DNA of 64,000 bases, from NCBI RefSeq assembly GCF_000764535.1, contig NZ_CP009572.1:62001-126000 (forward strand), in the 5' to 3' direction. The DNA is from Sphingomonas taxi. Its GTDB lineage: Bacteria; Pseudomonadota; Alphaproteobacteria; Sphingomonadales; Sphingomonadaceae. The notes under the pieces are model-generated. The model had not been told where the DNA came from and did no database searches. It saw only the letters and a program-made list of their open reading frames with translations. Shown in pieces: positions 1,167 to 19,813 of this stretch (its first letter is position 1; every line of letters starts with the position of its first letter). The position numbers were made by a program, and so were the translations under genes.

Positions 1167-2119
1167 CGAGGCAGATCCAGCGTCCAACCGTCGCCGTTAC
1201 GCCGCACGCTGACGTCCAGAAGCGCCGCGAGCAGCGTCGGGTCGTTGCGGAACGCGTGCGTCTCCAGCGTGCCGTTGAAGATCCGGGTGGCGACCGCCGG
1301 CGCGGCGGTGATGCGCCAGCCGAGCTGCCGCGACAGGTCTTCGGCGACCTCCGCCATCGTCGCGCCGTCATAGGCGAGGCGGCCGTCGCGCCAGGCGCCG
1401 ACATCGGCGACGTCCGTCCGCGTCCGCCGCAACGTGTCGCCATCGGCGACGACCCCCTGACCGGGGTCGAGGCGGAGCGCAGCGCCTTTGGGGTCGACCA
1501 TCACCGCGCCTTCGCCGACCGCGACCTGCTTGCGCGCGCCCAGCACCCGCACGTCGAACACGGTGCCGAGATCGGTCAGCGCAAGGCCACCGACATCGAC
1601 GTGGAACGGCGCGCCGGCGTCGTGGCGCACCCGGAACAGCGCCTCGCCCGCCTCGACGGTGGCGCGACGCGGCCGGGCCCGATCGAGCCGGACGCGCGAC
1701 CCGCCGGCCAGTTCGATGCTGCTGCCTTCGGCAAGCGCGATGCTGCGCCGTTCACCCGCCATGGTGGCGATCGTATAGGATCGATCCTGTTCGCGCCAAA
1801 AACCGAAACCGAACAATCCGACCAGCACGACGGCGACGGCGAGCCAGATGCCGCGTGCCGGCCGCTGCACAGGCTCGGCAATGACCGGCTCGGGATCATT
1901 CGCGGCGGGTGGCGGCGTCGGGACGGTCCGCGCGACGCTTTCGGTCGCGGCGGCCAGAGCGGCGACCGCGCGATCGTACAGCTCCGCATGCCCCGCGTCC
2001 GCTTCGAGCCAGTGCGTGAAGGCGTCCCAATCGGCATCGGGCTCGGCCATCCGCAGCGCCCAGTCCAAGGCGACGCCGTCGACGGCATGTCCTGCGGCGC
2101 CCGGTCCGAACGCGCTCAT
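1163..2119 (-). CDS. FecR family anti-sigma/sensor protein
   Basis: Inner-membrane signal transducer, 318 aa. The N-terminal cytoplasmic part (residues 15-50, [21 protein letters not shown]) matches the sigma-binding FecR N-terminal domain. One membrane segment (about 90-108, [17 protein letters not shown]) is followed by the periplasmic FecR domain (about 115-210) and a C-terminal secretin-like region ([18 protein letters not shown]) that would meet the receptor STN domain. Its ATG overlaps the sigma-factor stop (ATGA) and its stop overlaps the receptor GTG, so sigma factor, FecR and receptor form one coupled operon. Expected role: hold the sigma factor until the receptor reports substrate. 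Confidence 0.92.
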
Positions 2120-2616
2120 CGTATCTCACCCTTCAGCTTGACCAAGGCCCTGGTCACGTCGCGCAAATCGCTCTCCACCGTACTCAGGCTGATGCCGAGC
2201 TCCGCAGCGATCACCCGTTGCGGCACCCCCTCGACGCGCGCCCGATGGAAGATCGTCGTCTTGCGATCGCCGAGGCTGCGCAGGAGCTGCGTGACCTTCG
2301 CCGCCTCCTGCCGCGCGCCGACCTCGCGTTCCGGGGTCGGGGCGGTCGCGGGATGATCCTGCTGTCCGTCGTGCCACGCCTGGTCGCGCCGTTCCGCCTG
2401 CCGCAGCGAGCGATAGCGGTCGATCATCAGCAGATCGGCGGCCCGATAGAGGTAGGCGACGGGATTGGCGATCGGTCCGTCGCTGCGCCCCGCCACCTTG
2501 AGCCAGAGGTCATGGACGAGATCCTCGGCAGCCTCGCCCGCACCACGTGCCCGGAGGAAACGAAGCAGCTTGTCACGATTGTCCAGATAGACTGCTTCAA
2601 GGCCGTTCGGCGGCAT
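2116..2616 (-). CDS. ECF RNA polymerase sigma factor, FecI-like
   Basis: 166 aa. Region 2 is seen in [14 protein letters not shown] and [19 protein letters not shown] (core polymerase and -10 recognition). Region 4 is the C-terminal helix-turn-helix, [21 protein letters not shown] longer in-frame reading extends upstream, but that part is the broken ynfA gene plus non-coding sequence, so the start at the ATG at 2614-2616 (MPPNGLEAV) is chosen; it gives the normal FecI length. It is first in the sigma-FecR-receptor operon and presumably drives it. Confidence 0.92.
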
Positions 2617-2927
2617 GGTGTGACGGGTCGTCCGCGTTGGAAGATGCCGCTGTCTAATCGGAGAGGCCTGGCAGGAGAAGCCATGTTTGCCGTGGTCCGC
2701 TCCGGTACGCGGGGGAGAGACGTCATCGGCGGTGTCGTCCAGCGGGGGAACGCACCTGTCCGCCGCGCAAGCCGCGATCGGCCGCGCCTCGTCCCATTCA
2801 TCCGTCCTGTCTTGCAGACCCTCGTCGAGGCGCATTGTCGGTCTTTCCCGGTCTTTAGCAACCGAGACGGAGTCGGACGGGCAAACCCTTGGAGCCGCCG
2901 GCCTTGCCCCCTCGCAGAAGGCTGCGG
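2617..2927. other. Intergenic, 311 bases
   Basis: Lies between the broken ynfA gene and the sigma factor. Open frames exist on both strands but none has recognisable protein character. It should hold the promoter of the sigma-FecR-receptor operon (minus strand); I cannot point to a convincing -35/-10 pair. Confidence 0.4.
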
Positions 2928-3261
2928 TCAGGTCCCGGACGCGACGCGTGGTCCGCAATAGATGATCGCGGCGCCGGCAAGGCACACGCACGCCCCCAGG
3001 ACGTCCCAGCGATCCGGCTTCGTGCCTTCGGCGAGCCACAGCCAGACGACCGCCGATGCGATGTAGACGCCGCCATAAGGCAGCATAGGCGCGCCCCGCC
3101 TGCGCCATGGCTGGCAGCGTGAGCAGAGAGGCGAACAGGCATAGTGACAGCAGGCCCGGGACGACCCACCACATCGATCTGCCGAGGCGCAACCAGGCCC
3201 AGAAGGCGAAGCATCCGGCGATTTCGGCCAGCGCTGCCGCAAGGAATGCAAAGGCCGTCAT
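2928..3261 (-). pseudogene. ynfA: UPF0060/YnfA small membrane protein, broken by a one-base frameshift
   Basis: Four-helix inner-membrane protein of the YnfA/UPF0060 family (about 108 aa). The first half reads [20 protein letters not shown], then [13 protein letters not shown] and [15 protein letters not shown]. The second half, [18 protein letters not shown] onward through [19 protein letters not shown], is in a different minus-strand frame. Removing one A/T at 3077-3078 (plus-strand CATAAGG) joins them at exactly the family's conserved AYGGVY motif and gives 110 aa. The rest of the gene looks intact, so this is either a very recent inactivation or a base-calling error. A start at 3279 is also possible. 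Confidence 0.85.
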
Positions 3262-3298
3262 CGTTGCGTTCGCGCTCATGGCAAAGGCCTCCGGTGGC

Positions 3299-4825
3299 CT
3301 ATGCGGGGCCGCGCCGCCCGAACCGCCGCCCGATCTGCGACAGCCGGTCGACCACCATGCTCTCCGGCCCCTCGGGACGGCCGACCGCCGCCCAGGAGCC
3401 GAGCAGGATCGCGCCGTAGACCGATGCGCCGAGCACGACGGTGCCGATCACCGCGACCAGCGACAGCGACTGGCGCATCGCATCGGGGAGCAGCAGGATC
3501 GCTGCGGCCATGCCGGCGGTGGCGAGCGCGATCCGCCACGGCGCGAGCACTTGCGCGACGATGCCGAGGCCGACGAGCTTGCGGACATAGCCCATCGTCA
3601 CCAGCATCATCGTCGCATTGGTGAGGACCCGGCCGATCACCGCGCCCATAACGCCATAATACCAGATCAGCGCCACCAGCACCGGCAGCTTGATGACGAT
3701 CTCGACGAGGCGCTGGCGCAGGAAGATCGAGGTGCGGCCCATCGCCATCGCCATCGGATCGAGCGGCGAGACCCAGACGACGAACACCGGCGCGAGCGCG
3801 AGCCAGCGCAGCATCGGGATCGACGAGATCCAGTTGCCGCCGAGCACCACCGGCACGACCTGATCGGCGACGAGGCTGAGCCCGATCATGCCCGGCGCGG
3901 CGATGGTCAGCAGCGTCTGCGAGATGCGCAGATAGGCGCGCGCCATCCGCTCGCGCGAATCCTTGAGCGTCACGAAGCCGGCCATCAGCGGCCGCATCGC
4001 CGGCGTCACCAATACCTGTTCGGGCACCGACGACAGATCCGCCGCCATCGAGAAATGGCCGAGGTCGCCTTTGCTGATGAAGCGACCGAGGATCAGCTTG
4101 TCCGACTGCCAGCTCAGCGCGGCGAGCGCCTGCGCGAGGCTCGCCCAGCCGAGGAAGCCGGCGAAGCTGCGCCATTGTGACAGGCCGAGCCGCGGCCGGA
4201 ACGGCGCAAAGCAATAGGATTGCACCATGCTGGCGAGCGGCGTGACGACGGTGCCCGCGGCGATCGCCCAGTAACTGTGGGTGGTGATCGCGAGCACGAC
4301 CGCGACCGAGAAGCCGAACACCTTGCTGACGATCTCGATCACGAGATCGCGGCGGAAGTCGATGCGGCGGGCATATTGCACCATCGCCGGGCTCTGCAGC
4401 CCGCGCGCGATCGGCGACAGCGCGAGGAACAGGATCAGCGGCACCAGTCGCGGATCGGCATAGGCCCAGGAGAAGGGAAAGGCGGCGCCGGCGATGACGA
4501 TGGCGAGGATCGCGCCGCGGATCACGCCGATGGTGAAGGCGGTGTCGAGATGGCTGCGGCCGATCTGGTCGAGCCGGACCAGCGACTGGACGATCGGCAG
4601 TTCGGACACCGCCTCGACGATGAAGATCAGCGTCATCGCCACCGAGATCAGGCCGAAATCCTGCGGCGACAGCGTCCGCGCGAGCACGATCAGCGTGGTG
4701 AAGTCGATGCCGCGCGCCATCAGCCGCGAGGCCATCAGCCACGCCACGCTGCCCGCCGTCCGGCTGCCAACCCCCGGCCCACGCTCTGGTCCGGCCCCTG
4801 GACCGCCCCCTGACTTGTCCGTCAT
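3299..4825 (-). CDS. Polysaccharide flippase, MOP/Wzx type (copy 1)
   Basis: Inner-membrane flippase for lipid-linked oligosaccharide, 508 aa from [10 protein letters not shown] at 4825; an extension to 4906 is possible but is low-complexity. About 12-14 hydrophobic helices are visible, starting at [19 protein letters not shown]. The segment [20 protein letters not shown] is typical of the Polysacc_synt family (RfbX/GumJ relatives). Its N-terminal half is clearly paralogous to the flippase part of 14291-16237 ([28 protein letters not shown]). It closes the left side of the EPS locus, and the GT8-like gene lies upstream on the same strand after about 100 bases. Confidence 0.9.
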
Positions 4826-14290: not shown

Positions 14291-16237
14291 TCATGGCCGT
14301 TTCGGATAGGGTCGGGCGACTTGGCGCGACGGGGTCGGGCAGCGTACACAATGTCCGTCGACCTCGATCGTCTTGGCGGTCATGCGAAACCCTGCGGCGC
14401 CGGCGGCAACGCTGATGATATTCGCCGCGGTATGGCCCCTGATCGGCGTGGATTGCCCGCACCTCTGGCAGACCAGGGTGATACGCGGCTGATATTGCTC
14501 GCCTTCTATCGCCCGATTGTCGGTCGGCTGGACGAGGTTGGCCTGCATCAGGATATCGAGGATGCGATAGACGCTCGCCGCGGCGGGTTCGGCGTTCACC
14601 TTGGTCGAGGCGGTGGCGAGCGCGAAGATCTGGTCGCGCGCATCGGCGTGCGCCGCCTCCTGCGCGGGCGACACCATGGCGCCGTCGCCCGCCGCGGCAC
14701 CGCCACGCCGACGGCGCAGCTTGGCGGCGATGCCGAGCACCATCGATTCACCGCCCTGCGGCCGGCCGGCGACCTGCCAGAGCAGCAGCACCGTCGCGCC
14801 GAACGCCAATGCGCCGAGCGCGGCGAGCGCGGCGAGCGCCACCGTCAGCCACGGCCGCGACAGATCGGTCGGGAGCAGCTGTGCCACCGGGAAGACGACC
14901 GCCCCCATCACCAGGCAACCGAGGATCGGACGCAGGATCGCCTTGAGCTGCGCCCAGACCGGCAGTTCGATGGCGTCGCGCGCGGCGCGCACCGCCATCC
15001 CGGCCAGCACCAGCGCGGCGGCCGCCCGCGCGGCCGCGATCCCCGGGATCAGGAAGAACCAGGCGCCGGCGATGACCAACGGCACCTTGACGAGGAAGTC
15101 GGTGAGCTGGCGGTTGAAGATCAGCGTCGAGCGGCGCAGCGCCAGCGCCAGCGCGTTGAGCGGCGTCCACAACAGGCCGGGAATGCCGGCGAGCGCCAGC
15201 CATTGCAGGATCGGCGCGACCATATCCCATTTCGCGCCGAGCGCGAGGCTGACGACGGGATGGGCGAGCAACGCAGTGCCGGCGAGGATCGGAAAGCCGA
15301 GCAGCGCCACCGCCGCGAAGGTCTTGAGATAGGCCTGGCGCAGCCGCTCGGGATCGTCGCGCACCGCGACCAGCCCCGCCGACAGCGGCCCGAGGATCGG
15401 CGTCAGCAGCACCTGGCCGGGGATCGACGCCAGACTGTCCGCCATGGTGAAGCGGCCGACCGTCGCGGTCGGCGCGAGCCGGCCGAGCACCAGCCGGTCC
15501 ATCTGCCAGGCGAAGGCGGAGAACAATTGCGCGCCGCTCAGCCAGCTCAGGAAGTTGCGGAACAGCCGCCAGTCCTTGAGCGAGAAGGTGGGCCGATAGG
15601 GGGCGAGGACGAACGACATCAGCGACGCCGTCACCGGCGACAGGATGGTGCCGAGCGCCAGCGCCCAATAGCTGCCCGTCGCCACCGCGACGCCGATCGA
15701 CACGCACAGCGACACGACCTTGCCGAGCAATTCGGTGGCGACGGTCCGGCGGAAGTCGAGATCGCGATTGTACAGCGCCAGCCGCGGATTGCTGATGCCG
15801 CGGAACGCCGGCGCCAGCGCCAGCGCGGCGATCAGCGGCAGCAATCGTGCGTCGCCATAGACCATCGCGAAGGGCCAGGCCGCCGCGCCGATCAGGATCG
15901 CCAGGACGACGCCGCGCAGCACGCTGAGCGTGAAGGCGGTATCCATCATCGTCCGGGTGATGTCGCGCTCGACGAGCAGCACCTGCGACACCGGCAGTTC
16001 CATCACCGCCTCGACGATGAAGATCAGGCTCATCGCGATGCTGATCAGGCCGAAGTCGGCGGGCTGCAACAGCCGCGCCAGCACGATCAGCGCGACGAGA
16101 TCGATCAGCCGCGACAGCAATCGCCCGCCGACCGCGAGGATCGAGGCGAGCGCGGTGCGATGCGAGGCGGTCGCCGCGACGGCGGTGGTGCGGGTGGCGG
16201 CGGCCGGGGCGGGGACGCCCGCCGATCCTAGCGCCAC
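14291..16237 (-). CDS. Polysaccharide flippase (copy 2) fused to a Fur/Zur-like C-terminal domain
   Basis: 648 aa from a GTG at 16237 (start uncertain; the frame is open to 16609). Residues about 30-510 are a MOP/Wzx flippase paralogous to 3299-4825, with LARLLQPADFGLISIAMSLI near the start and GRPQGGESMVLGIAAKLRRR at its natural end. The frame does not stop there. Residues 521-648 resemble the Fur/Zur family: ASVYRILDILMQANLVQ (recognition-helix region, compare TVYRALDFLLEQGFV in Zur), LVCQRCGQ (Cys590, Cys593) and IEVDGHCVRCPT (Cys630, Cys633), the two pairs that bind structural zinc. The first helices of the normal DNA-binding domain and the His-rich regulatory site are missing. A separate protein started at the internal ATG at 14677 is an alternative. 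Function of the added domain unknown. Confidence 0.8.
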   Translation of the reverse strand: MALGSAGVPAPAAATRTTAVAATASHRTALASILAVGGRLLSRLIDLVALIVLARLLQPADFGLISIAMSLIFIVEAVMELPVSQVLLVERDITRTMMDTAFTLSVLRGVVLAILIGAAAWPFAMVYGDARLLPLIAALALAPAFRGISNPRLALYNRDLDFRRTVATELLGKVVSLCVSIGVAVATGSYWALALGTILSPVTASLMSFVLAPYRPTFSLKDWRLFRNFLSWLSGAQLFSAFAWQMDRLVLGRLAPTATVGRFTMADSLASIPGQVLLTPILGPLSAGLVAVRDDPERLRQAYLKTFAAVALLGFPILAGTALLAHPVVSLALGAKWDMVAPILQWLALAGIPGLLWTPLNALALALRRSTLIFNRQLTDFLVKVPLVIAGAWFFLIPGIAAARAAAALVLAGMAVRAARDAIELPVWAQLKAILRPILGCLVMGAVVFPVAQLLPTDLSRPWLTVALAALAALGALAFGATVLLLWQVAGRPQGGESMVLGIAAKLRRRRGGAAAGDGAMVSPAQEAAHADARDQIFALATASTKVNAEPAAASVYRILDILMQANLVQPTDNRAIEGEQYQPRITLVCQRCGQSTPIRGHTAANIISVAAGAAGFRMTAKTIEVDGHCVRCPTPSRQVARPYPKRP

Positions 16238-16279: not shown

Positions 16280-16671
16280 GTGTCCCGGGGACGGGGCGCA
16301 CGGCCGCAACGAACGCCAATACTCTCTGCTCCGATGATGACATCGACGGACCGGGACCGACGTGATCCTGGACCGCAAGCCGCGCCGCAGCCGCTTAGCG
16401 CATTGATTAGCGGTTCCTTCATCGTCTGTCACCCGCATTGAACCATTGCTTTCGGCGCGTCGCTGGCCTGATATGGGGCCATAAGCACGATGCAGGTGCG
16501 CGCCGCGCCGCGGCCGACGGGAGAGGAATGCAGACGACGGCCGAGCAACAGCACCCGACCCGCCGCCTCTGGTATAGTTAACGCCTGTTGACCAAGAACA
16601 GATCGGCAAGACACGTGCGCTGCAATAGCGCGATCGCAGTCCCGGCAGGGTCCAGACACGCGGGATCGGCC
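16280..16671. other. Intergenic, about 390 bases
   Basis: Upstream of the flippase fusion and of a tiny plus-strand gene. Only overlapping shadow frames are seen. Expected to hold divergent promoters; none identified with confidence. Confidence 0.35.
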
Positions 16672-16811: not shown

Positions 16812-17282
16812 ATGGCGATAACTGCTCAGATCATCAGTGACGACCGCAGCTCGGAACGGTTCCCGGCCGGGCTCAACGCGACACTGCGCGACCAGGTGAC
16901 GCGTCCCCACGACGTGATGATCGACGATCTGTCGCTGACCGGCTTCCGCCTGTCGGGCGGCCCGGCGATGGCGCTGGGCAGCGAGGCGTCGATCGGCTTC
17001 GCCGGCATCGGCGTGCATCAGGCGCGGGTGACGCGCCAGGACGGCGACGTCTACGGCTGCGAGTTCGTCACGCCGATCACGCAGGAGATGCTGACCCGCG
17101 CGCTCACCGCCGGCCCGGTCGCGCCGATCGCCTTCCCGACCGCGGCGGGCCCGTCGCTGCTCGACCACGTTCCCGAACCTTATGTCGAACCCTATTCGGG
17201 CCGCACCAAGCTGGCGATCGCGACGGTCGCGGCCGCCGCAGGCTGGGCGGTCGCAGCCGGCCTGTATTTCGCGCTGACCTGA
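16812..17282 (+). CDS. PilZ-domain protein with C-terminal membrane anchor
   Basis: 156 aa. Residues 13-90 fit a PilZ fold: SSERFPAGLNATLRD (position of the RxxxR arginines, here degenerate), VMIDDLSLTGFRLSGG (the D/NxSxxG signature with T before G), and VYGCEFVTPIT. Residues 131-154 (TKLAIATVAAAAGWAVAAGL) are a membrane helix. PilZ domains commonly bind cyclic di-GMP, but the RxxxR motif is not clearly intact here, so ligand binding is doubtful. Placed inside the EPS region, it could control polymer synthesis at the inner membrane. Confidence 0.75.
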   Translation: MAITAQIISDDRSSERFPAGLNATLRDQVTRPHDVMIDDLSLTGFRLSGGPAMALGSEASIGFAGIGVHQARVTRQDGDVYGCEFVTPITQEMLTRALTAGPVAPIAFPTAAGPSLLDHVPEPYVEPYSGRTKLAIATVAAAAGWAVAAGLYFALT

Positions 17283-17320: not shown

Positions 17321-19813
17321 TCAGAAGCGCAGCACCGCCGATGCGGTCACGTTGCGCCCGGCGAAGGTCCGCGCGCTGGCGATGCCATCCGCCGGAATAT
17401 AGTCCCGGGGACGGCCGACCTCGGTAACCGCGGTCACGTTGAACAGATTCTGCGCGTTCAGCCCCAGCCGGATCGTCGGCGTCACGTCGACCGACGCAAA
17501 GCCGTTGGTCAGGACGTAACCCGGCATCTTCAGCGTATTGGAGTCACCCGCATAGGATGACGTCGTGCCGGTGACGTTCAGGCCGACGACGAAGCGGCCG
17601 GTATCGATCGACGGCGTCGCCTGGAAGACGATAGCGGCCTGGCGATAGGGGATGTGCCCGTCGAGCGTCGGATCGACCTCGCTCTCGGAAATGCGGGCAT
17701 GGGTATAGGTCGCCCCGCCGAGCAGGTGGAAGATGCCGCGGTCGAACCCGCCCTCGAATTCGACGCCGTAGGACCGGTAATGGTTCTTGACCAGCATCTG
17801 CACCGGGACGGCGATCTCGTTGGTCTCCGCGGTGAGCGCGCGGAAGGCGGTGAGGTTGGCGAAGAGCGGACCGGAGCGGAGCTTGATGCCGAGATCCTGC
17901 TGGTCGACGAAATTGACCGCGACCTCGTCGGCGATGCTGCCGTCCGCGCGAACGCCGCCCCCGAACAGCAGATGGTCGGCGTTGAAGCGCGCGCCGCGGC
18001 TCACCCGCCCGAACGCCGCGACATCATGGACGATCTCGTAATTCACGCCGACCGAATAGGTGAGGTAGGACTTGCGGTAATCGACGGGCTGCGCCGCGTT
18101 GAGGTCGACAACGGGAACGCGCTGTTCGGGCGTCTGGATACGCCCGTCCTGGTTGACGTCGATCATGCCCGGGCGGCTGGGGCCGGCATAGAAGCCGTTG
18201 GCAGACGAAATGTTGTAGCGGATGCTGCCGCCGACGTTGAGCCCGCCAATCTGGAAATTGGCGCCGAAATAGGGCGCGTCGATATTATAGTCGACGTCGT
18301 AGAAGCGCTGGCAGCAATTGCCGAATATGGGTTCGCCATAAGCGATCAGCCCGTTCTGCGTCACCGGCTGGCCGGCGCTGTCGTAGACGTCGAGCAAGGC
18401 GGCGCGATGGCCCTTCGCCTCCTCGAGATAGCTGTTCCAATGCCAGTCCATGCTGACCTTCTGGAATGACTTGAAATAGCCGAGCGCGATGCTGCCCTTG
18501 AAGGCGCCGAGATGGTAATCGCGGGTCAGCGACAGGATGTTGGTCGCATTGGTTAAATCGTTGAGCGTGACGCCGAAGGTCAGCGCGTAGAGGCCCAGGC
18601 CGTTGCCGTTGAGCCGGGTCGGGTCGGCGATCGCCCGACCGGCGTTCGGCCCGCTGGCATAGGCCACCGTCGCGCCCGCTTCGCCGATCCTGCCCGCCAA
18701 GGTTGCTAGCGGCGCCACATCCGCCGGGAAGGAGGTGATGACGCTGCCCGAATTGCTGGCGACGTTGAACATGTCGCTGAAATTGAAGCCGTCGCCCAGG
18801 TCGAACGACACCTGCGCGCCACCGCCGCGGGTCTTGATGCGATAGCCGTCGGCAAGGTCGGAGGCGATCCGGTTGCCGTCATGACCGATCGCGGTGTCGC
18901 TGCGGAAATAGGGCGACAGGGTCGTGCCGGACCGCAGATCGAAATCGGGGAAGCTCTCGTAGACCGGCTTGTCCGCGGTGCCGGTGATGCGGGCCGGCGT
19001 CGGCATGTAGAGCGGCGAGCGATCGTCGAGAACCTTGACGCTCAGCCGGATGAAGCCGTTGTCGAACTTGCGCGTGACATTGGCCTTGAACTGGCCGCCG
19101 CGCTCGGCGGTATAGCCCGTGTTCCTGAGCCCCTTGCCGATGCGGTAGAAGCCGCCGACGTGGAAGGTCCAGTCGTGGCCGATCGGTGCGCCGTAATCGG
19201 CATCGAGCCGGGTCCGGTCGAAGTCGACGCCGCGGCTGAAGCCGATCGACCCGCCGGCGACGTCGCCGGTCTTGCTGATGAAGTTGATCACCGCGCCGGG
19301 GGCGTTGCTGGTGAAGGTCGACGCCGATCCGCCGCGCAGCACCTCGACGCGCTGGATGTTGTAATCGGGACGCAGGAAGGTGTCGGCGGTGGCGAAGGCG
19401 ATGTCGCCGAAATCGAGCAGCGGCAGGCCGTCTTCCTGGAACTGGACGAACTTGGCCCCGCCGCTGGCGGAGGGCAGGCCGCGCACCGCAATATTGGCAT
19501 TGGTCTCGCCGCCCGACGATTCCGACCGCAGACCGGGAATGTTGCGCAGCAGATCGGCACTGCCCAGCGGCGCGAGCCGGACGAGGTCGGTGGCATCGAC
19601 CGCGCTGATCGAGATGCTGGTGGTCAGCCGGCGCCGTGGGCGCGCCGTCCCGGTGACGATGATGTCCTTGTCGGGCGGCAAGGTCTCGTCAGCGGATGCC
19701 GGCGTGGCGGATGCCGGGGCATCGGATACCGGCACGGTGGTTTGCGCCGAAGCGTCCTGCGAGATCAACGCGATCGCAGCCACACCGACCAGCAAACGGG
19801 ACGTAACGTTCAT
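17321..19813 (-). CDS. TonB-dependent receptor with EF-hand-like loop
   Basis: Outer-membrane transporter, 830 aa. Signal peptide MNVTSRLLVGVAAIALISQDASA; TonB box KDIIVTGTARPRR at about 49-61; plug with LRNIPGLRSESSGGETNANI, IAVRGLPSA and QRVEVLRGGSASTFTSNAPG; C-terminal beta-barrel ending in the required Phe (TASAVLRF). A loop near the middle reads DVNQDGRIQTPE, a canonical EF-hand calcium loop (Asp1, Asn3, Asp5, Gly6, Ile8, Glu12). Two adjacent Cys (GNCCQRF) are also unusual in a barrel. No STN domain, so not self-signalling. It interrupts the EPS genes; substrate unknown. Confidence 0.92.
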   Translation of the reverse strand: MNVTSRLLVGVAAIALISQDASAQTTVPVSDAPASATPASADETLPPDKDIIVTGTARPRRRLTTSISISAVDATDLVRLAPLGSADLLRNIPGLRSESSGGETNANIAVRGLPSASGGAKFVQFQEDGLPLLDFGDIAFATADTFLRPDYNIQRVEVLRGGSASTFTSNAPGAVINFISKTGDVAGGSIGFSRGVDFDRTRLDADYGAPIGHDWTFHVGGFYRIGKGLRNTGYTAERGGQFKANVTRKFDNGFIRLSVKVLDDRSPLYMPTPARITGTADKPVYESFPDFDLRSGTTLSPYFRSDTAIGHDGNRIASDLADGYRIKTRGGGAQVSFDLGDGFNFSDMFNVASNSGSVITSFPADVAPLATLAGRIGEAGATVAYASGPNAGRAIADPTRLNGNGLGLYALTFGVTLNDLTNATNILSLTRDYHLGAFKGSIALGYFKSFQKVSMDWHWNSYLEEAKGHRAALLDVYDSAGQPVTQNGLIAYGEPIFGNCCQRFYDVDYNIDAPYFGANFQIGGLNVGGSIRYNISSANGFYAGPSRPGMIDVNQDGRIQTPEQRVPVVDLNAAQPVDYRKSYLTYSVGVNYEIVHDVAAFGRVSRGARFNADHLLFGGGVRADGSIADEVAVNFVDQQDLGIKLRSGPLFANLTAFRALTAETNEIAVPVQMLVKNHYRSYGVEFEGGFDRGIFHLLGGATYTHARISESEVDPTLDGHIPYRQAAIVFQATPSIDTGRFVVGLNVTGTTSSYAGDSNTLKMPGYVLTNGFASVDVTPTIRLGLNAQNLFNVTAVTEVGRPRDYIPADGIASARTFAGRNVTASAVLRF

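Follow-up and report, generated by a model that had tools for sequence, protein, structure and literature searches.

The stretch of DNA considered here (the window) comprises 64,000 nucleotides of the Sphingomonas taxi contig NZ_CP009572.1, and it carries on its minus strand a gene in which a Wzx/MOP oligosaccharide flippase is joined in frame to a C-terminal domain that profile comparisons relate to the zinc regulator Zur (Table 1). An earlier note on this DNA had proposed such a fusion to a Fur/Zur-type domain, and its description of the frame is accurate: all 648 residues are open, the frame runs past the flippase end into a tail containing ASVYRILDILMQANLVQ, LVCQRCGQ and VDGHCVRC, and a paralogous flippase of the same cluster stops at the corresponding place, 19 residues past the matching RPxGxES site. 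The membrane part is assigned to the flippases by two Pfam profiles, both above their cut-offs, and ends inside a basic stretch, KLRRRR (residues 506-511). A crude hydropathy scan gives 14 peaks, some of which adjoin and may be one helix, and a predicted model of the fused protein is helical throughout this part. The start codon is uncertain, as the frame is open upstream to a TTG at 16609; the GTG at 16237 lines up in an alignment with the methionine starts given for two close homologues (P0004 and P0005). Third-position guanine-plus-cytosine (GC) content is 0.81 in the tail domain versus 0.54 over the 100 codons beyond the stop. A 636-residue open frame lies antisense to nearly the whole gene (14321-16231, plus strand); such frames are typical of GC-rich coding DNA, and no weight is given to it.

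Table 1. Features of the fused gene and its surroundings, in window coordinates.
Feature	Position	Strand	Remarks
Complete fused gene, Wzx/MOP flippase with Zur-derived C-terminal domain	14291..16237	minus	648 residues; GTG start inferred
Flippase part, residues 1-508	14714..16237	minus	PF13440, E 1.4e-59; PF01943, E 6.4e-19
Variable linker, residues 509-529	14651..14713	minus	contains ATG 14677, unconserved
Zur-derived domain, residues 530-633	14339..14650	minus	profile and structure matches
Recognition-helix equivalent SVYRILDILMQANL, residues 555-568	14534..14575	minus	best-conserved piece of the tail
First CxxC of structural zinc clamp (residues 590, 593)	14459..14470	minus	
Second CxxC of structural zinc clamp (residues 630, 633)	14339..14350	minus	
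Second Wzx, paralogue without Zur tail, same cluster	3299..4825	minus	508 residues, ~40% identical
PilZ-domain gene	16812..17282	plus	divergent from fused gene in the window and five other fused loci (L064-L068)

The fusion of a flippase with a Zur-derived domain is real, and related genomes conserve it with no stop between the two parts. In a whole-sequence protein search whose scoring was limited to the 7996 candidates with the most words in common, 12 of the 40 proteins found carry the same tail (P0004-P0015, 67-96% identical), and the two nearest other homologues (53% and 52%) end, like the paralogue, at the natural flippase end. Together with the window gene these give 13 fused rows, which include near-copies; several of the protein clusters come from strains that also figure among the genomes described here, so the counts do not represent independent events. 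A model built from 12 of the fused domains, with full-length matches as confirmation, places the fusion in five of 295 genomes from this genus, one of them the source genome. A scan of named genomes, from which records of the window's genome or close to it may be missing, returned three of the five carriers: Sphingomonas melonis AS2.3, Sphingomonas sp. RIT328 and Sphingomonas sp. Leaf21. In each of the five the domain model also matches a second time, as would be expected if a separate Zur were present. A sixth carrier is Sphingomonas sp. NY01, in which the gene lies on the complete plasmid p2. In a family-wide draw of 397 genomes (96 genera), matches at E<=1e-22 occurred in only two, both of this genus. 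A search for partners other than flippases, comparing residues 515-648 with proteins of approximately 357-1136 residues, returned nine matches, all of them known flippase fusions; this search is leaky, having missed P0013-P0015, whose tails are more divergent.

The assignment of the tail to Zur is carried by profiles built from close relatives. The earlier note's expectation of a Fur-family match is borne out as homology and falls short of curated thresholds: the C-terminal part matches the Pfam FUR profile with 22.2 bits (E 1.6e-4), slightly under the cut-off of 23.1, and the NCBIfam Zur profile with 25.1 bits (E 1.2e-5), far under the cut-off of 167. Together with a match to the solved Zur structure 7dh7 (E 1.2e-5), each of these is marginal or modest when taken alone. 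Of 26 Zurs extracted (the genome's own and those of 25 loci), 12 were used for a profile, an alignment and the comparison of cysteines and histidines. Against this sphingomonad Zur profile all 13 fused domains score 36.7-50.8 bits, compared with a maximum of 12.3 bits when the window domain was shuffled 2000 times. Profile-profile comparison (hhalign) of the fused domains with sphingomonad Zur gives 99.0% and E 3.5e-18 over approximately 100 residues; alignment A2 holds 12 of the 13 fused domains, P0004 being left out. PF01475 is matched at E<=1 by all 12 fused members scanned (best 4.5e-5), and the top structural matches of the tail are Fur/Zur, with modest scores. Within the same genome, 34 of 102 aligned residues are identical to Zur and only 17 of 105 to Fur. 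A search with the 128-residue tail for free-standing homologues gave no match at E<=0.001 among 98 candidates and is weakly informative, since shared five-residue words were required; homology is shown instead by the profiles, which relate the tail to Zur over a span running from roughly helix 3 up to the second CxxC. Separately, the stretch 14291-14650 (minus strand) shows a weak Pfam match to the LapB rubredoxin-type zinc ribbon in four of 12 members (best E 0.011).

The profile alignment with Zur begins at helix 3, in agreement with the earlier note's remark that N-terminal helices are missing, and the winged-helix DNA-binding domain is by alignment incomplete: helices 1 and 2 are absent, and helices 3 and 4, remains of the wing and the zinc-clamp half are kept. 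The recognition-helix residues S-V-Y-R-I-L-D are invariant across the 13 fusions, and the ARRV-type stretch that follows them is replaced. With two helices and the ARRV-type stretch missing, DNA binding by the tail is unlikely, and the invariance of the SVYRILD residues keeps it conceivable. The four cysteines of the structural Zn(Cys)4 clamp are present in 13 of 13 fused rows. Five further cysteine or histidine columns, kept in all 12 Zurs compared, are lost in every one of the 13 fusions, and the Zur sensing ligands are expected among them. The tail thus appears to hold the residues of a structural clamp and no sensing site, a "sensor-dead" Zur domain, and the metal-responsive role suggested in the earlier note is not supported by this comparison.

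In a tree of 37 tail-trimmed flippases, the 17 fused rows fall on one side of a branch (support 100/99), adjoin three unfused flippases (P0016, P0017 and that of genome G018) and enclose none of the 20 unfused rows, a topology that fits one gain and no loss of the tail. Ratios of nonsynonymous to synonymous substitution rates (dN/dS) were taken from the 10 pairs of five coding sequences; with short segments and a dS that is frequently high, the order of the values outweighs the values themselves. The flippase gives 0.07-0.31, the helix region (residues 534-570) 0.13-0.52, the rest of the domain (residues 571-632) 0.23-0.66, and the linker (tested as residues 509-533) a near-neutral 0.45-1.76. 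Divergence is quicker in the zinc-clamp half, where identity goes down to 23-34%, than in the helix region, and the extreme C-terminus also changes fast. On this ordering, purifying selection acts on the tail, whereas the linker is drifting.

The fused gene belongs to a plasmid-borne exopolysaccharide cluster. The window lies inside a 163-kb contig of a three-contig genome, this contig has a plasmid replication initiator, and the same holds for the fusion-bearing contig in all five fused genomes; a related plasmid-borne exopolysaccharide cluster surrounds the fused gene in all six genomes. In the window the cluster contains glycosyltransferases, a UDP-glucose dehydrogenase, a cell-wall hydrolase, a Wzz/Wzc-type kinase and the second Wzx. 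This set is largely conserved around the fusion in the five other loci compared (L064-L068), and some genes are not common to all; within the stretches fetched, the dehydrogenase, for example, was matched in L064 alone. Two flippases of the subfamily (E<=1e-90) occur in each of the five fused genomes and one in each of the seven unfused genomes with a match, and since the fused ones share one cluster lineage, the two-flippase pattern counts as one event, not five. The divergent PilZ-domain gene was considered as evidence of a fusion-specific partner and rejected as such, because it is not peculiar to the fusion: G018 has a 53% PilZ relative at a distance of approximately 17 kb from its unfused sister flippase, and weaker relatives occur in the six other unfused genomes searched.

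Several further observations concern this neighborhood. In the window and in L065 (RIT328), a TonB-dependent receptor (17321-19813, minus strand) stands between the PilZ gene and the glycosyltransferase; it is unmatched in the other four fused loci within the stretches fetched, and either its late insertion or its loss from the cluster may account for this. Both the fused and the second Wzx are near-identical between two strains, G081:C2 (L068) and NZ_CP101724.1 (L067), a sign that the plasmid-borne cluster may have been shared recently. Beside the second Wzx, a frame at 2116-3279 (minus strand) encodes approximately 60 residues of YnfA/UPF0060 (profile positions 4-62 of 107), approximately 160 unmatched residues and then an extracytoplasmic function (ECF) sigma factor; the arrangement resembles a YnfA gene that has been broken or frame-shifted and now reads through into the sigma gene. 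FecR follows the ECF sigma frame at 1163-2119.

We favor, with a probability of roughly 0.5, the reading that the tail is a zinc-stapled docking or dimerization module: a sensor-dead Zur domain reused immediately behind the arginine-rich tail at the cytoplasmic mouth of the flippase. In E. coli WzxE, according to a published study, both termini are cytosolic and an arginine-rich C-tail beside the cytoplasmic entrance is essential (PMC11706664). The fused tail would be expected to be cytosolic because both WzxE termini are. The Zur piece starts approximately 20 residues past a basic tail comparable to that of WzxE, and so close behind it would be well placed to dock a partner, pair flippases or hinder entry. 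In the proposed mechanism, the tail would fold around one structural zinc, and it would no longer sense zinc or act as a free repressor. It would dock or dimerize at the flippase mouth, with the invariant SVYRILD helix either pairing two flippases or binding a component of the exopolysaccharide machinery. This pairing or docking would localize or throttle flipping. A broader version, which we consider less likely than not, makes the zinc-regulator fold without its sensing site a built-in flippase controller: at the cytoplasmic mouth it would gate the transporter or cluster it, and it would tie the export of slime to a partner in the cytosol, which could be Zur itself or, via the neighboring PilZ protein, cyclic di-GMP.

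Among the alternatives, the best placed, although unlikely, is that the tail is a leftover of a chance join, neutral and tolerated without a role. Its narrow distribution and the fast change of the zinc-clamp half and the extreme C-terminus would suit such a relic. The tree, with no loss of the tail inside the fused clade, and the constraint on the helix region beside a near-neutral linker argue against it, as do the four cysteines, which are invariant though the half that holds them drops to 23-34% identity. Slightly less likely still is that the tail serves as a decoy for, or pairs with, the free Zur of the same cell; mixed dimers would then hold Zur at the membrane and link exopolysaccharide export with zinc control. 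The tail does derive from a sphingomonad-type Zur and retains its zinc-clamp half, and a Zur with which it could pair is indicated by the second domain-model match in each of the five fused genomes, a separate Zur-like match having been located for two (G000 and G017); however, the clamp half is the faster-evolving one, and two-thirds of the aligned residues differ from the genome's own Zur.

A thiol or redox switch, in which oxidation would free zinc from the four cysteines so that the tail unfolds and the flippase is gated, is improbable. Clamps of the Zn(Cys)4 type are usually purely structural in Zur, which weighs against it, and sequence alone cannot separate a structural from a redox clamp. 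In its favor are the retention of the Zn(Cys)4 residues in all 13 fusions and the title of Protein Data Bank entry 2fe3, which names the corresponding PerR site a Zn(Cys)4 structural redox switch. The earlier note's membrane-tethered, metal-responsive DNA-binding regulator is quite improbable: the invariant recognition-helix residues speak for it, and set against them are a DNA-binding domain without two helices, the replaced ARRV-type stretch and a sensing site that is apparently gone. A separate small Fur-like protein, translated from a start inside this frame and also raised in the earlier note, is very improbable. An ATG at 14677 exists in the window, but none of the four other coding sequences examined has an ATG, GTG or TTG at the matching position, and by eye the 20 bases before it hold no clear ribosome-binding site. 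Another in-frame ATG, at 14743, lies at the flippase end downstream of a purine-rich stretch in five of five coding sequences, which makes initiation there conceivable, but its methionine is part of a flippase motif common to the tailless paralogue. An assembly or sequencing join, lastly, has nothing in its favor and is refuted, because the frame recurs in records from other strains, among them the complete NY01 plasmid, where the gene is annotated as one 652-residue protein.

To our knowledge, the control and cellular placement of Wzx flippases are largely open questions. The tail is natural, under selection and removable, and only one of the cluster's two paralogous flippases has it; this offers a direct test of flippase control. 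If the favored docking reading is true, it would also show a Fur-family fold serving within a transporter in a structural or docking capacity, without sensing. Each half of the protein resembles a known system. The whole membrane part and the basic C-tail are like those of Wzx proteins of the MOP superfamily (PF13440, PF01943), such as E. coli WzxE and the window's second Wzx; unlike the fused protein, the unfused Wzx in this comparison stop at the basic C-tail or shortly past it. The tail is homologous to sphingomonad Zur, of the Fur superfamily (PF01475), from roughly helix 3 to the second CxxC, sharing the SVYRILD helix, LVCxxCGQ, IEVxGxC and the Zn(Cys)4 residues; in contrast to Zur, it lacks helices 1 and 2 and five other conserved cysteines and histidines, and is joined to a membrane protein rather than acting as a free regulator.

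A functional parallel is found in the mycobacterial MviN (MurJ), a flippase of the same superfamily as Wzx. The fusion of a flippase with a Fur/Zur domain did not appear among the papers listed in the literature searches, which in some cases were a small share of those matching, in a collection without most subscription journals. MviN carries an activity-dead C-terminal pseudokinase that recruits a regulator and is dispensable for peptidoglycan synthesis itself (PMC12599244). Its tail is a pseudokinase, not a Zur, and unrelated in origin, so the likeness is one of working principle only, an activity-dead regulatory fold at a flippase C-terminus recruiting a partner. The parts are known, and their combination, a flippase with a regulatory-type cytosolic tail of Zur descent, is apparently new.
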